IMG/VR virus record: IMGVR_UViG_3300029448_008288
Location: 1 to 23,376 of that record
Reading direction: 5' to 3' (one strand)
DNA: 23,376 nucleotides
Origin: a virus
Part shown: positions 6,285-22,338 of the stretch, one piece after another
Layout of the letters: each line of letters begins with the position of its first letter
How positions within the stretch are numbered: position 1 is the first letter of the stretch
Made by a program: the position numbers and the translations under genes
Notes under the pieces: model-generated
What the model was told of the DNA's origin: nothing
Databases searched by the model: none
What the model saw: only the letters and a program-made list of their open reading frames with translations

Positions 6285-8541
6285 ACATCTTCTCAAATTT
6301 ACCCAAGGAGTAATCTTCATGTACATCAAAATCACAGCCAACAGGAGCACCTGGTATAGATACACCGCGATCGAGTTGAATAAACATTTTGAGGGCTCTA
6401 CTGTACTGTTCAACTTCTTCGTCTGGAACTTCTGCAAGTATTGAGTCATGCACAAGTGCAAAGATACGAGATTTCATCTTTTCTACTCGTATATAGTCAT
6501 TCATATCAATTGCACCTAGAAGATTAATATCTGAAGCAGGCGATTGTACCAAAAAATTAAGCCCAGACCGAATACTATGACTACGAATAGCAGCATCTTC
6601 AGATAATACGTTTGGAAGTCGTCGTTTCCGTCCAAAAAACGAATAAACGAACCCATTCTGTTCAATAAACTTTTGATTTGTCTCCAGCCACTTTTTAAGA
6701 CGGTGAAAAGAGCCGAAATAATCATCAATAACTTCTTTAGCTTCTGATACACTGAATAATTTTCCTGAGTCTTTTGTAACTTGTTGACTGATCTTTGAAG
6801 GACCAGCCCCATACATAATACCAAATGTTACTGCTTTTGCAGCTTGTCTTTGAGTTCCGTAAAGCTCGGCAACATCTTCTACAGCACATGGTAGCTTGAA
6901 CACTGTTTTAGCAATCGTACTATGAAAGTTTCCGCCGCTGCGGAATACATCCATAAGTGCTTCATCATCTGCAAGTTTTGCTGCAACATATACTTCTGCG
7001 GTAGTTAAGTCCATTGCAACAATTTTATTGCCGGGTGCTGCTTTGATACACCCTTTTACAATTGGATTGTCGCGAGGCAGCTGCTGCATATTTAGCTTGC
7101 CAGAACTACTAAGTCGGCCGCTAGTAGTGCCATGAAGATTGAAATTAGTCCGAAGGCGAGAATCTCTATCAAGCTGCGGAATGATTTTATCAAGATATGT
7201 ATTTTTGATCTTTGATTTTTGTCGGATGCTAAGTATGTGTTTTGGAACTTCATGTACTTCTCCAAGCTGTTGTAGCACTTCTGCATCAGTAGAGTTTGCT
7301 CCTGTTCCCGTCTTTTTGCCGGTAGGCTTGAGACCTATATAATCAAACAAAAGAGAACGCAGCTGTACAGTGCTGTTAGGGTTAAACTGTTTGCCCTGTG
7401 CTTCCTCAAATCTTTTTATTTCGGGTACATCATACAAAGATTGAATAGCTTCATCAATATCATCCTGCATTAAGCCCTGAGAAATTAGGAGTCGTTGGCG
7501 ATCAAACGGTACTCCATTGTCCTGTGCATCAATTAGAAAACGACAGCCAGGAATAAGAATATGATCATATACCCATTTAAGCTTTGGGTTTTCTTTAATT
7601 TTCTTGAATTTTTGGTAGAGCAGAAAAGTACACACTGCATCCATTGCTGCATATGTTTTCATTACGTCAAACGGAATCATATCCCATTGAAAACTTTCTT
7701 GATTTAGTCCGTTTGCTCTTTTGTAGTCTTGAATCCAATCATACATTGGTTTTTCATAATCACCGAATGCAGTAAACTTTAGGGAGAGCTGTTTGAGGCC
7801 ATGTCCTCCAGGATTCTCGTCTATGAGGTAATGGAGCAACATGGTATCTTCAAATCGAGGAAACTCAAATCCAAAGTGATACTGAAAAAATGCCATATCA
7901 AACTTAGCGTTGTGGAAGATTACTCTGCGTTTTAGAAAAAGCTCATGCAGCATCTTTTCTATTTCATCATCAAAACACTCAGTATCAATATAGATACCGT
8001 TTTTTCCGTTATAGGACATAGAAATACCGATCATATGTCCATTTCGGGGATACAAACCGTTTGTTTCTGAGTCAAGAGCAATATAGTCACCGCTGTGTGC
8101 TAACGCTCCTCGAATCCATTCTTTTGCTACTTCAGTATCCTGAGTGCCCATAGCAATGCTTTCATCAATAACAACATCCTCTATCTCACCATTGATGTAG
8201 GCAATAATATTTTTCTTGGAGTCTTCCCAGGTCTTGCGGGCTTCTGGCTTAAATGCAAGCATCGCAGGATTTATAACAGGCAGGAACTTTTCCTCCACTT
8301 TCTTCCCAGAGTACTCTGTAACTGAGTTTATTTTTGTAAAGTATTTTAGAGCATCACTTCCGACGAGTACAACCCAGTCATACTCATCGGTGTCAATTGA
8401 AATATCGCAATCTCGTTTTAGAACTTTTTTGAGTGTAGGATCAGAACAAAGTTGATACTGATCAAAGTCAAAAGCCCCATCAAACTCACGAGTAAAGTCT
8501 GTGCGGCTAGGTTTTGTTTCTACTAATGCAACTTTAGGCAT
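6256..8541 (-). CDS. Family A DNA polymerase with 3'-5' exonuclease and N-terminal UDG-like domain
   Basis: 761 residues from ATG 8541, chosen because GGAGAA lies ten bases upstream and the ATG overlaps the primase stop by 8 bp; an open extension to 8586 is not needed. Residues 57-95 (VVLVGSDALKYF, FLPVINPAML) resemble the uracil-DNA glycosylase superfamily fold but lack an evident catalytic motif. Exonuclease motifs: ALDSETNG (D157, E159), FHNAKFD (D215), YAAMD (D301). Polymerase motif A is MDLTTAEVY (D511, E516), motif B RQAAKAVTFGIMYG, with Phe at the E. coli F762 position, and motif C VHDS (698-700), Ser replacing the usual Glu. The replicative polymerase role follows from the primase and helicase neighbours. 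Confidence 0.96.
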   Translation of the reverse strand: MPKVALVETKPSRTDFTREFDGAFDFDQYQLCSDPTLKKVLKRDCDISIDTDEYDWVVLVGSDALKYFTKINSVTEYSGKKVEEKFLPVINPAMLAFKPEARKTWEDSKKNIIAYINGEIEDVVIDESIAMGTQDTEVAKEWIRGALAHSGDYIALDSETNGLYPRNGHMIGISMSYNGKNGIYIDTECFDDEIEKMLHELFLKRRVIFHNAKFDMAFFQYHFGFEFPRFEDTMLLHYLIDENPGGHGLKQLSLKFTAFGDYEKPMYDWIQDYKRANGLNQESFQWDMIPFDVMKTYAAMDAVCTFLLYQKFKKIKENPKLKWVYDHILIPGCRFLIDAQDNGVPFDRQRLLISQGLMQDDIDEAIQSLYDVPEIKRFEEAQGKQFNPNSTVQLRSLLFDYIGLKPTGKKTGTGANSTDAEVLQQLGEVHEVPKHILSIRQKSKIKNTYLDKIIPQLDRDSRLRTNFNLHGTTSGRLSSSGKLNMQQLPRDNPIVKGCIKAAPGNKIVAMDLTTAEVYVAAKLADDEALMDVFRSGGNFHSTIAKTVFKLPCAVEDVAELYGTQRQAAKAVTFGIMYGAGPSKISQQVTKDSGKLFSVSEAKEVIDDYFGSFHRLKKWLETNQKFIEQNGFVYSFFGRKRRLPNVLSEDAAIRSHSIRSGLNFLVQSPASDINLLGAIDMNDYIRVEKMKSRIFALVHDSILAEVPDEEVEQYSRALKMFIQLDRGVSIPGAPVGCDFDVHEDYSLGKFEKMYGHNLETAQ

Positions 8542-11430: not shown

Positions 11431-12156
11431 TTAACCTGCTGCTTTTTCTTTTCGAGCAGCACCGTCATAGTCCTCTGCAACAAGGCCACGACGAGTAAGC
11501 ATGGTTTTTACACCACGTGCAGTTTTGCCGATAGCTTCGGCAATCTCTTCAACGGTCATTGAAGAGAGGTCACCCAGGTCTGCTAAAGGATCTTCTTTAG
11601 TAGAACCTTTGGTGTGCTCTTGGCGAGGAATAGCGTCAATATGACCAGAGCGCAGCAAGCTAAGAGCTTTACCACGAACACTGTTTACTTCTCGACCCAG
11701 AGCTTCAGCGATAGCTTCTACATAGGCTCCATCGTTGACCATTTCGATAAAGGTAACCTCTTCGTCTTCGCTGTAGGTACGTACTGCTTCTACTTTTGGA
11801 GCAGGCTTAACATGAGAGGTCAATTCCATAGAAAGAATCTTTCCTTGGATTTGCTTGGCGTCGAATGCGCCTCCCTCAAAGTTTTCAGCGATTTGAGCAT
11901 AAGTATACTCACCGCTATTGTCTTGCACAAATGTTGCAAGAGTAGCTTCTTGTGCTTCAGAAAAAGCACGAGTGCTAGAAGCAGAGGCAAGCTCTACCTC
12001 GAATCCCATCTTTCGCAGTTTGCTAGAGATAGAACGAGTTGAAGTCTCAAGCTGCTCTGCTGCTTCTGCAACAGTTGCTTGAGAGATAGGTGACTCGTCA
12101 CCTACAAATGATACGAGCTCTTCGGTTCGCTCGTCGGTCCACTTAGGCAGTGCCAT
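11431..12156 (-). CDS. Four-repeat helix-turn-helix/SANT-like DNA-binding protein
   Basis: 241 residues made of degenerate repeats of a three-helix HTH unit. The approximate bounds are 6-53, 65-115, 127-173 and 197-228. Each repeat has an acidic/aromatic helix start (W or Y/F followed by S/T-x-E), then a recognition-like helix (RSISSKLRKMG, KQIQGKILSME, NSVRGKALSLLR, RGVKTMLTRRG). Linkers of Lys/Pro/Ala separate them and the C-terminus is basic. I recall related proteins in marine phages, without known function; a sequence-specific or architectural DNA-binding role is inferred. AGGAGAAAACT precedes the ATG, which overlaps the ligase C-terminal gene by 14 bp. Confidence 0.82.
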   Translation of the reverse strand: MALPKWTDERTEELVSFVGDESPISQATVAEAAEQLETSTRSISSKLRKMGFEVELASASSTRAFSEAQEATLATFVQDNSGEYTYAQIAENFEGGAFDAKQIQGKILSMELTSHVKPAPKVEAVRTYSEDEEVTFIEMVNDGAYVEAIAEALGREVNSVRGKALSLLRSGHIDAIPRQEHTKGSTKEDPLADLGDLSSMTVEEIAEAIGKTARGVKTMLTRRGLVAEDYDGAARKEKAAG

Positions 12157-12898
12157 AGTTTTCTCCTAAAAATTCAAGTAAATTTTCCACAATTGTTAGC
12201 CCATCATTTCGGGCTTTGATTGTCTTTTGTGACTCAATACCACTTTCATTGACCAATACAGTTACGTCTTTTGTGACACTACTTTTTACTGTGTAGCCGT
12301 GTTGTTCTAATGCTTTCGTAGCTTCAGCCTTCGTTTTGAAACTCTTTAGCTTACCAGTAATACATACCGTACCAGCAATATCTCTTTGCACTGGCTTCTC
12401 AAATATCATAGACTGAGGGAGGAAAAAAGGAAGTCCCCCGTCAAGATACTTAAGCAGACTCTCAGTAGCCGCTGGGCCAAGACCTGCTTTACTACAAACT
12501 TCCTCGTCGACTTCGTGAAGTCCATTACATATTTTGGAAAGTTTTTCAGTAGCTGTCCTACCGATCAAACGAATACTTAGTGCTGGTAATACCATATTTA
12601 GTGGTGCATTTCTAGAGTTTTGTATTTCTGCAAACAATTTCTCAGCTAACTTTCTTGATCCCAGAGATTCTCCAATATCATCTTGTGTAAGAAAATAAAG
12701 ATCGCCAGGATTATTCAACTCAAGTTTTTCGATGGCAGCTGGGCCTAGACCTTTAATCTTCAAAGTCTTGGCAAAGTGCTCGATTTTCTTTTGTGATTGG
12801 CTACCACAATGGACATTGCGGCAGTAGAGGATATGATTCTCCCACTTCAGAAACTCACCACAACTAGGGCAAGTGCTGGGTGCAAGTATCTTCTCCAC
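12143..12898 (-). CDS. NAD+-dependent DNA ligase, C-terminal half (zinc finger, HhH, BRCT)
   Basis: 251 residues matching the C-terminal half of LigA. A Cys4 zinc finger (C10, C13, C26, C31) is followed by helix-hairpin-helix repeats from about 43 (KIKGLGPAAIEKL, then AGLGPAATESLL at 138-149) and a BRCT domain at about 170-246 (GTVCITGKLKSFKTK). No adenylation domain is present; it is encoded by the next gene upstream, so the two products would act as a two-subunit ligase. The start is GTG 12898 with AAAGGAG eight bases upstream, and its own promoter P3 precedes it. The zinc finger and HhH clamp DNA in known LigA. Split ligases are known in T5-like phages. Confidence 0.9.
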   Translation of the reverse strand: MEKILAPSTCPSCGEFLKWENHILYCRNVHCGSQSQKKIEHFAKTLKIKGLGPAAIEKLELNNPGDLYFLTQDDIGESLGSRKLAEKLFAEIQNSRNAPLNMVLPALSIRLIGRTATEKLSKICNGLHEVDEEVCSKAGLGPAATESLLKYLDGGLPFFLPQSMIFEKPVQRDIAGTVCITGKLKSFKTKAEATKALEQHGYTVKSSVTKDVTVLVNESGIESQKTIKARNDGLTIVENLLEFLGENYGTA

Positions 12899-13010: not shown

Positions 13011-13934
13011 TTAATCAATACGTCGCAAAATTCGTGGTATAATTTCACCACTACGAATTACTTCAACGCTGCAGCCAACCTCAAGATTTAGTCCCCGAAT
13101 ATACTCGATATTATGCAGGGTAGCTCTTTCAACTACTGCATCACCAATTTTTATTGGTGATAGAATAGCTACAGGACTTACAACCCCGCTCTTGCCAACC
13201 TGCCACTCCACCCCGAGTAGTTGAGTAACTACTCCTTTCTTTTGTTCTTTGAGAGCAAAGGCTCCACGAGGATGATGCGCTGTGTATCCCATCTTTTCAA
13301 ACTCTTTATAGTTATCTTTTCGATAAACTACTCCGTCTGTTGGGTATACTCCGTCTTGAACATTCCATACTGTGCCAAACCCTAGGAATAATAAGTTATT
13401 CATGGCACCTGTCCAGGTCGCACAAATAGCGGGCTCTGTATTATAAGCAATAAAATTAACTGCTCTTTCTTGAAACTCTTCATCACTTTTTAGATTAAGA
13501 GCACCCGCAGCGTAATTCCTTGAGTTAGGAATAGATGCAGGAGCAACCACCTCTCCAGTAATTTGAAGTGTCCAAGCAGTATCAGTAAGCCCAATAGTAT
13601 TGGGAACCAGATGCTTTAGCTTACTTGTAACGTCTTTACCTACTTTACCATCGCCTCTTGTAAGTGCTTGTTTTAGCTCTCCTCCAACATAAAGAAGAGA
13701 GACAGCAGCTCCGTCTAGCTTGGGGCTATAGGCATACGTTAGTCGGTCAAAGTCAGGTAGGGTAGTAAACTTCTGTAATGAATACATCTGAAAATAATGA
13801 GGAATACCGTCCGTTACTTGGTAGCCCACACTATCTGTTCGATATACAGAAGCAAGGCGATCAAACTCTTCGTCAGAGATGACTGGGTTGCCTTCGTAGT
13901 ATTTCTTAGCAGCGTTTTCTAAAAAGTCGCGCAT
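13011..13934 (-). CDS. NAD+-dependent DNA ligase, N-terminal half (Ia, adenylation, OB)
   Basis: 307 residues. The NAD-binding Ia region is at about 10-30 (KYYEGNPVISDEEFDRL). The nucleophile motif is KLDG with Lys72, then LTRGDG at 91-96, ITGEVV at 125-130, RNYAAGALNLKS at 139-150, TDGVVYR at 199-205 and the OB-fold WQVGKSGVVSPVA at 244-256 with ATLHN at 271-275. It ends right after the OB motif GEIIPRI, where full-length LigA would continue into the zinc finger. That part is encoded downstream as a separate gene. It seals nicks with NAD+ via lysyl-AMP. ATG 13934 has GAGGAA upstream and promoter P4. Confidence 0.93.
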   Translation of the reverse strand: MRDFLENAAKKYYEGNPVISDEEFDRLASVYRTDSVGYQVTDGIPHYFQMYSLQKFTTLPDFDRLTYAYSPKLDGAAVSLLYVGGELKQALTRGDGKVGKDVTSKLKHLVPNTIGLTDTAWTLQITGEVVAPASIPNSRNYAAGALNLKSDEEFQERAVNFIAYNTEPAICATWTGAMNNLLFLGFGTVWNVQDGVYPTDGVVYRKDNYKEFEKMGYTAHHPRGAFALKEQKKGVVTQLLGVEWQVGKSGVVSPVAILSPIKIGDAVVERATLHNIEYIRGLNLEVGCSVEVIRSGEIIPRILRRID

Positions 13935-21552: not shown

Positions 21553-21963
21553 TTACTCGATATTTATCATCTTGGGTCTTTCTTCGTCTGGTACTACTTC
21601 ATCCAGATCAATACAGAGTAGACCCCTGTTCATGTAAGCTTTCTTGAGCTGCACATGCTTGTGTAACGTAAACGTTCTCACAAACTCTTTTCCGCTCAAC
21701 CCCTTATAGACATATGACTCGCCTTCTTTTTCCGTCAGCTTACATAAACCTTTTACGGTCAAGACATCTTTATGCTGTGATATTTCGATATCGGATTTGT
21801 TCCAGCCTGGAACTGCTATCTCGACTCGATACCCAGTGTCTGTCTTTACGATATTATATCGAGGGTATGCCCCATCAATATTTGGGTTTACATTCTCAAA
21901 ACGGTCAAACCCCAAAAAGAATTTTGGGAAGTCTGCCACATTCAATCTTGCTAGATTGTTCAT
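21553..21963 (-). CDS. Hsp20/alpha-crystallin small heat shock protein
   Basis: 136 residues. An N-terminal arm (MNNLARLNVADFPKFFLGFD) is followed by the alpha-crystallin domain at about 36-125 (YRVEIAVPGWNKSDIEI, LTVKGLCKL, then YVYKGLSGKEFVRTFTL and GLLCIDLDE) and the IxI-type tail (KMINIE). Small heat shock proteins hold unfolding clients. Phage copies, common in marine phages, are thought to help capsid or tail assembly or stabilise the host proteome. AAGGAG precedes ATG 21963 by about five bases, directly downstream of a bulged hairpin, so translation may be controlled by RNA structure. Family certain; role inferred. Confidence 0.95.
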   Translation of the reverse strand: MNNLARLNVADFPKFFLGFDRFENVNPNIDGAYPRYNIVKTDTGYRVEIAVPGWNKSDIEISQHKDVLTVKGLCKLTEKEGESYVYKGLSGKEFVRTFTLHKHVQLKKAYMNRGLLCIDLDEVVPDEERPKMINIE

Positions 21964-21975
21964 AGTTTTCTCCTT

Positions 21976-22014
21976 GTGCCCTTTCGGTACACTCTGTGGA
22001 TCCTTTCGGCATCC
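21976..22014 (-). promoter_or_regulatory. Tandem bulged GAAA-tetraloop hairpins in the hsp20 leader
   Basis: Two 17-base RNA hairpins, 5 bases apart, at 22014-21998 and 21992-21976 on the minus strand. Each has four outer pairs, a bulged purine on the 5' side, two C-G pairs and a GAAA loop. The outer pairs differ (GGAU/AUCC versus GUGU/GCAC) but pair in both. The second ends directly at the AAGGAG site of hsp20. Confidence 0.72.
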
Positions 22015-22046
22015 GATTTAGTTGTGGGCGTTAAAGGTGCTCCGAC

Positions 22047-22190
22047 CTAATCTTCAGTAAACTCAATAACTCCTTGAGCCTCTAAGTAATCCAGGGCATG
22101 CTCAATGCCGGCCTTGTGGCCTGCTTTGAAGCTGCCGTAGGCACAGCCTATCATACAAAGTATTACTGTTAGTATTTGTAACTCTAACAT
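22047..22190 (-). CDS. 47-residue membrane-anchored phage protein
   Basis: First gene of the minus-strand unit. The frame runs from ATG 22190 to TAG 22047. An N-terminal hydrophobic segment (ILTVILCMIGCAYGSF, about 6-21) is followed by a basic/amphipathic stretch KAGHKAGIEHALDYLEA and an acidic end (VIEFTED). The arrangement suggests a single-pass membrane anchor with a short cytoplasmic helix, commonly seen in phage small proteins. Only a loose GTGGAA lies about 14 bases upstream. Promoter P8 lies 54 bases upstream. No function is recognised. Confidence 0.62.
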   Translation of the reverse strand: MLELQILTVILCMIGCAYGSFKAGHKAGIEHALDYLEAQGVIEFTED

Positions 22191-22243
22191 GTTAATTGGT
22201 TCCACTACTTAATTCCTTAAGGCTGTTACTATCACGTTTATAT

Positions 22244-22283
22244 ATTATACACGCAAGGACTTTTGATGTCAAGAATTATTTTT
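22244..22283 (-). promoter_or_regulatory. Sigma70-type promoter P8 (minus strand of the divergent pair)
   Basis: On the minus strand, TTGACA at 22272-22267, a 17-bp spacer and TATAAT at 22249-22244, preceded by AAAAATAATTC. Expected start near 22237, giving a leader of about 47 bases. It drives the Hsp20-lysis unit. Confidence 0.88.
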
Positions 22284-22298
22284 ACTAGGAGAGAAATA

Positions 22299-22338
22299 AA
22301 AAATAGTGCTTGACATGAAACCTCAATTCCATTATAAT
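22299..22338 (+). promoter_or_regulatory. Sigma70-type promoter P9 (plus strand of the divergent pair)
   Basis: TTGACA at 22310-22315, a 17-bp spacer and TATAAT at 22333-22338, preceded by AAAAAATAGTGC. The start codon of the next gene begins six bases after TATAAT, at the expected +1. About 37 bp separate the two -35 boxes of the divergent pair. Confidence 0.88.

Follow-up and report, generated by a model that had tools for sequence, protein, structure and literature searches.

How is the small heat shock gene hsp20 regulated in a virus whose leader RNA for this gene carries two look-alike hairpins just before the ribosome binding site? The question arises from a 23,376-nt stretch of viral DNA (positions 1 to 23,376 of the IMG/VR record IMGVR_UViG_3300029448_008288; hereafter, the window). 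An earlier reading of the sequence alone (the original prediction) had noted the hairpins and proposed either a protein-bound translational operator or a temperature-sensing or stability element. As described below, the hairpins recur with compensated stems in related viruses, and they stand only at hsp20 units. The best-supported mechanism is a translational operator through which Hsp20 would repress its own synthesis, the repression being relieved by client proteins; we assign this reading a probability of roughly 0.5.

Twin Hairpins in the hsp20 Leader

The two hairpins of the window (HP1 and HP2, Table 1) lie 22 nt apart, start to start, and share a common plan, namely a 4-bp stem, a 1-nt bulge on the 5' side, CC/GG pairs, and a GNRA loop. 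The minimum free energy (MFE) structure of the leader (-12.9 kcal/mol, z-score -2.48) consists of exactly HP1 and HP2 and leaves the Shine-Dalgarno (SD) site open; a fold as good was reached by 3 of 200 shuffled leaders. The string CCGAAAGG occurs in the window only at HP1 and HP2, and the layout, GNRA loop included, is matched at a single other site, a weak one. Thus, the original description of tandem hairpins with identical layout before hsp20, the second abutting AAGGAG, is borne out by the coordinates, by the MFE fold, and, for the layout, by the relatives considered below. Its bulged purine holds for the window (G in HP1, A in HP2) and usually for the relatives, although U takes this place in HP1 of 9 and in HP2 of 13 of the 101 leaders compared. 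No Rfam family matched the leader at gathering, and a match to SMAD5-AS1_2 on the opposite strand (17.5 bits vs. 50) was dismissed as chance.

Table 1. Elements of the hsp20 leader and adjacent features of the window.
Feature	Position	Strand	Description
Hairpin 1 (HP1)	21998..22014	-	GGAU-G-CC-GAAA-GG-AUCC; supported by fold, covariation, and likeness to ROSE_3 hairpin I
Spacer between HP1 and HP2	21993..21997	-	ACAGA, 5 nt
Hairpin 2 (HP2)	21976..21992	-	GUGU-A-CC-GAAA-GG-GCAC, including one U-G pair; supported by fold and covariation
Shine-Dalgarno (SD) site	21970..21975	-	AAGGAG; directly 3' of HP2, outside both hairpins, predicted open
hsp20	21553..21963	-	Small heat shock protein, 136 aa; ATG at 21963; PF00011, E 3e-14; YPRY motif; K at the position of IbpA R93
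52-aa open reading frame (ORF)	22047..22205	-	Upstream of hsp20; the twin hairpins lie between its stop and hsp20
Sigma-70 consensus promoter	22244..22272	-	12/12 match

Conservation and Covariation of the Hairpins

All Hsp20 relatives in IMG/VR with enough upstream sequence have both hairpins, with differing stems, and no DNA-level homology to the window was detected in isolate phages. When 101 non-redundant leaders were aligned by their loops, pairing held in 401 of the 404 outer-stem cells of HP1 and in 379 of the 404 of HP2 (shuffle maxima, 250 and 241, respectively), and each outer-stem position showed four to six types of standard pair. A second, independent alignment of 40 leaders, made with MAFFT, gave 98.5% paired cells, 9 of 12 pairs changed on both sides, and a covariation score of 0.832; shuffled controls scored 0.186, and slid partners no more than 0.160. 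Since the relatives keep the pairing through compensatory changes, an origin of the hairpins by chance can be set aside, and the covariation originally proposed for their stems is strongly confirmed. A covariance model (R1), a kind of check that had been suggested, was run on 16 viral records of 10-95 kb, each of which proved to have exactly one copy, and the homologous leaders keep the pairing. Judged by these sequence comparisons, the two hairpins are a conserved RNA family.

The stem letters vary freely, while the pairing, the bulge, CC/GG, and the GNRA loops are kept; a free stem sequence within a fixed shape is the mark of shape recognition. The loop is GNRA in HP1 of all 101 leaders and in HP2 of nearly all of them, and a pyrimidine nearly always precedes the HP1 bulge on its 5' side. 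In 68 of the 101 leaders, 5 or 6 nt separate the hairpins, and in most leaders HP2 ends 0-5 nt before GGAG. The near invariance of the GNRA loops and CC/GG pairs in both hairpins would also suit RNA-RNA docking, with the loops seated in CC/GG grooves, whether inside one leader, from one mRNA to another, or in contact with the ribosome; CC:GG is among the helix receptors known for GNRA loops. Docking, however, needs neither a bulge nor a restriction to hsp20, and in the sister class of leaders introduced below the loop of the first hairpin varies widely while its bulge is kept; we consider this explanation improbable.

Exclusive Linkage to hsp20

Viral contigs were scanned with a pattern that describes the RNA only (CCGAAAGG N12-16 CCGNRAGG N4-10 GGAG). 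Among the matches listed, 95 of 116 (82%) form both bulged hairpins, and hsp20 is the first downstream ORF in 94 of 96 paired cases. In the remaining two (L127 and L136), a single ORF of 81-85 aa intervenes between the twin hairpins and hsp20, and the same layout, with a small inserted ORF, was found in L232; as hsp20 follows the inserted ORF, these loci are not exceptions to the linkage. The inserted ORFs (8002-8256 on the minus strand of L127, 493-738 of L136, and 882-1172 of L232) have signal-peptide-like starts, and the two cases tested had no Pfam match. The same pattern applied to bacterial and archaeal genomes yielded, among the matches listed, both hairpins in 4 of 125 cases (3%), two of which (L519 and L559) are leaders of phage-type hsp20 proteins. 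A bacterial origin of the window-type leader was rejected, these two being the only real cases listed in the genome scan. The twin hairpins are carried by marine viruses of bacteria and keep their shape throughout a large virus clade.

The linkage bears on the main rival to an Hsp20 operator, a loss of regulation in which the hairpins would serve as an enhancer or stabilizer: they would keep the region before the SD site clear, or protect the mRNA or its processed 5' end, and sustain a steady, high, unregulated level of Hsp20. Stable GNRA hairpins can protect mRNA, the SD site stays open in window-type leaders, and the closeness of HP2 to GGAG agrees with such a role. A constitutive booster would, however, be expected before other highly expressed genes, and in phage records of 70-95 kb the covariance model detects no copy besides the one at hsp20; a generic booster placed before many genes was ruled out, as the element is found only at hsp20 units. 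The fixed single bulge, CC/GG, the near-uniform GNRA loops, and the use of two hairpins would also go unexplained. We therefore judge a booster unlikely, although it is the first alternative to be reckoned with.

Two Classes of Phage hsp20 Leaders

A leader-blind survey, sampled by protein, covered 313 hsp20 loci with 231 distinct leaders. Two classes were distinguished, namely class T, the window type, and class R, which is similar to ROSE_3 (RF02523), the family of short two-hairpin ROSE-like thermometers of Pseudomonas ibpA, where a stable hairpin I of not fully understood role is combined with a melting hairpin II (PMC3669281). Leaders labeled 'o' by the script proved, by eye, to be mostly class T with UC/GA inner pairs or class R with the motif, and a joint alignment of both classes (A2) was too diverse for searching. 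Class R is carried by named cyanophages, pelagiphages, and the methylophage Melnitz; among the phage records examined, no class T isolate was found, with leaders compared for 18 of the approximately 500 records with an Hsp20 match.

Both classes precede orthologous genes and have an alike, bulged hairpin I. In class R this hairpin is bulged in 187 of 200 leaders, with G as the bulge in 186, and its loop is variable, UUCG being the commonest. The classes differ in hairpin II, which in 198 of 200 class R leaders pairs the SD site in ROSE fashion through a ROSE-type anti-SD motif, giving a thermometer layout, whereas in class T the pairing to the SD site is lost: the second hairpin is, like the first, a bulged hairpin with a GNRA loop, and the SD site is left open. 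Accordingly, the predicted mean unpaired fraction of the SD site between 10 and 45°C is 0.64-0.75 in class T vs. 0.09-0.23 in class R. With the SD site open, regulation in class T would need a trans factor.

The idea that heat opens the hairpins and so raises hsp20 translation draws on the identity of the gene and on the ROSE-like, SD-pairing sister class. In class T, however, the SD site belongs to neither hairpin, has no U(U/C)GCU to pair with, and by prediction is open at all temperatures tested, and the leader has no ROSE match even at E = 5. The predicted SD accessibility led us to reject a thermometer for class T, which we hold to be highly improbable; the temperature-sensing role once suggested for the window element finds no support there, but fits class R.

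The bulged core of hairpin I is common to class T, class R, and Rfam ROSE_3. The window leader resembles ROSE_3 in having two hairpins before a small heat shock gene, and the ROSE_3 core NNNU-G-CC..GG-NNNN is the same in HP1; the consensus hairpin I (gGAUGCCGAAg..CGGGUCc) and HP1 (GGAUGCCGAAAGGAUCC) are very alike, so that the bulged first hairpin of the family is present. Unlike ROSE_3, the window leader has no U(U/C)GCU anti-SD in its second hairpin, leaves the SD site free, and has GNRA loops in both hairpins. The ROSE_3 covariance model gave no match at gathering, none in the leader at E ≤ 5, and none in the record at E ≤ 1. We rate the window leader as a ROSE-related small heat shock leader that falls outside the ROSE definition. 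Some class R leaders match ROSE_3 precisely at the leader position, although below gathering (34.1, 27.8, and 21.6 bits vs. 43), and the class R leaders of phage hsp20 genes look like unannotated ROSE_3-type thermometers below the Rfam cut-off.

Hundreds of marine phage contigs, along with named cyanophages, have class R leaders (L145-L158 and L239-L477). In S-TIM5 (L152, approximately 1465-1482), the SD site AAGGTGG faces CACGCTT, so that a change in one arm is compensated in the other and the hairpin that pairs the SD site is preserved. A Pseudomonas phage Y7 record (L601, OQ572409, unverified) has an IbpA-type gene with a ROSE-like leader; the phage record may here include sequence of bacterial origin.

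Hsp20 as the Candidate Binder

The fixed shape, the free stems, the two sites, the open SD site, and the link to one gene are together best read as a protein operator. The operator idea of the original prediction thus stands as the best-supported mechanism, with Hsp20 as the likely binder, the binding itself being putative. Hsp20 is proposed because it is the only protein always present and because its family has a self-repressing member that reads ROSE-type leaders: IbpA of E. coli binds its own 5' untranslated region, represses its own translation, and is titrated by clients (PMC10474464). The likeness to MS2 that had also been pointed out concerns layout only. As in the MS2 coat-protein operator, a bulged purine lies two pairs below a tetraloop next to the ribosome binding site. 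The bulged A of MS2 is A in HP2 and G in HP1 of the window, and A, G, or U in relatives. The MS2 loop is ANYA, whereas the window loops are GNRA and occur in two tandem copies, and the downstream gene encodes a chaperone rather than a coat protein or replicase.

The same bulge position and the presence of two sites are typical of operators such as that of MS2, and many contigs of diverse phages carry the twin hairpins, so the reader might instead be another RNA-binding protein of the phage or host. No candidate RNA-binding protein was identified among the window genes examined. Several cyanophages (L147, L150, L151, L155, and L156) have the gene of the translational repressor RegA directly upstream of hsp20 or close to it, yet those cyanomyoviruses have class R leaders. 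The exclusive linkage to hsp20 favors self-regulation, and we regard a different binder as rather unlikely, more so than a booster.

An Hsp20 operator could work as follows. Two bulged GNRA hairpins 22 nt apart beside an open SD site would offer a two-site platform, which would fit Hsp20 as an oligomer of dimers. When plentiful, free Hsp20 would occupy both hairpins and block ribosome entry; when unfolded clients occupy Hsp20, the leader would be released and translation would start. The twin-hairpin leader may derive from, or share an ancestor with, two-hairpin leaders of the ROSE_3 type, the bulged first hairpin having been kept and the thermosensing second one replaced by another bulged hairpin, by which control would shift from temperature to protein alone. 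That the bulged hairpin was kept and a second one added while the thermosensor was dropped suggests the bulged hairpin as the protein-reading part.

The protein was compared between 40 class T and 81 class R Hsp20 representatives; residue numbers follow an alignment to IbpA, into which the published Y34, R83, R93, R97, and K98 all fit. Over the whole of Hsp20, the columns that best separate the classes are IbpA positions 36 (R in 40/40 class T, P in 81/81 class R) and 93 (K in 40/40 class T, R in 79/81 class R). Position 93 is an RNA-binding residue of IbpA, and position 36 is two places from Y34. A strict class rule for R93/K93 was ruled out by K93 in 8 class R leaders, leaving P36R as the sole strict residue marker of leader class. 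Repression by E. coli IbpA requires an irreplaceable R93, basic residues at 97 and 98 (R97 and K98), and an aromatic residue at 34 (Y34), and it is abolished by R93K (PMC10474464). The window leader resembles the self-repressing IbpA systems of E. coli, Cedecea, and Vibrio (PMC10474464) in the protein family and in a structured leader before the protein's own gene, and the window Hsp20 keeps the aromatic residue (Tyr) at 34 and Arg at 97. It departs from them in Lys at 93, P36R, and Thr at 98, and in a leader that is not a thermometer.

Several of these observations weigh against an Hsp20 operator. Class T has K93, although R93K abolishes repression in E. coli, so class T could have lost RNA binding rather than re-tuned it, which would fit the loss of autorepression implied by a booster; K98 is not kept. 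Moreover, class T forms one clade (support 0.897), so the association of protein and RNA is a single evolutionary contrast, not repeated coevolution. The more extended proposal, of a viral RNA-protein switch derived from ROSE, in which Hsp20 reads a GNRA operator and senses aggregation without a thermometer and residues 36 and 93 were re-tuned together with the RNA, is tentative, and we place it slightly below even odds.

Among the open-licence papers searched, which include work on Hsp20 of cyanophages, on cyanophage genomes, and on Melnitz, none was found to describe hairpins ahead of a phage hsp20 gene. A 2010 survey of marine data reported manA RNAs preceding ibpA genes, and the manA family of Rfam has no match to the window. 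Comparison of the two classes makes the role of hairpin I in ROSE-like leaders directly testable and temperature sensing separable from aggregation sensing; if true, an Hsp20 operator would show a chaperone controlling its own synthesis in a virus, and would provide an RNA-protein pair that is both compact and modular.

Genomic Context of the Window hsp20

The 52-aa ORF is probably the first gene of an hsp20 operon, and the sigma-70 site upstream of it is probably the operon promoter. A second, divergent promoter-like site (22310-22338, plus strand) is also a 12/12 sigma-70 match and would drive the cell-wall hydrolase side; both sites have a 17-nt spacer. In close relatives (L164, L174, L178, L179, and L183-L187), a short H-type pseudoknot is possible between the upstream ORF and HP1, with co-varying stems (e.g., AGGCU/AGCCU with UGAGC/GCUCA, and GGGC/GCCC with UGGGC/GCCCA). 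The corresponding region of the window (approximately 22020-22050, minus strand) has the conserved AGGUCGGAGCACCUUUAACGCCC, which fits the pseudoknot only with a bulge. Elsewhere in the window, an NAD-dependent DNA ligase, judged from translations alone, is apparently split into two ORFs (12143-12898 and 13011-13934, both on the minus strand), the first half of which is resembled by positions 8832-9791 of L136.
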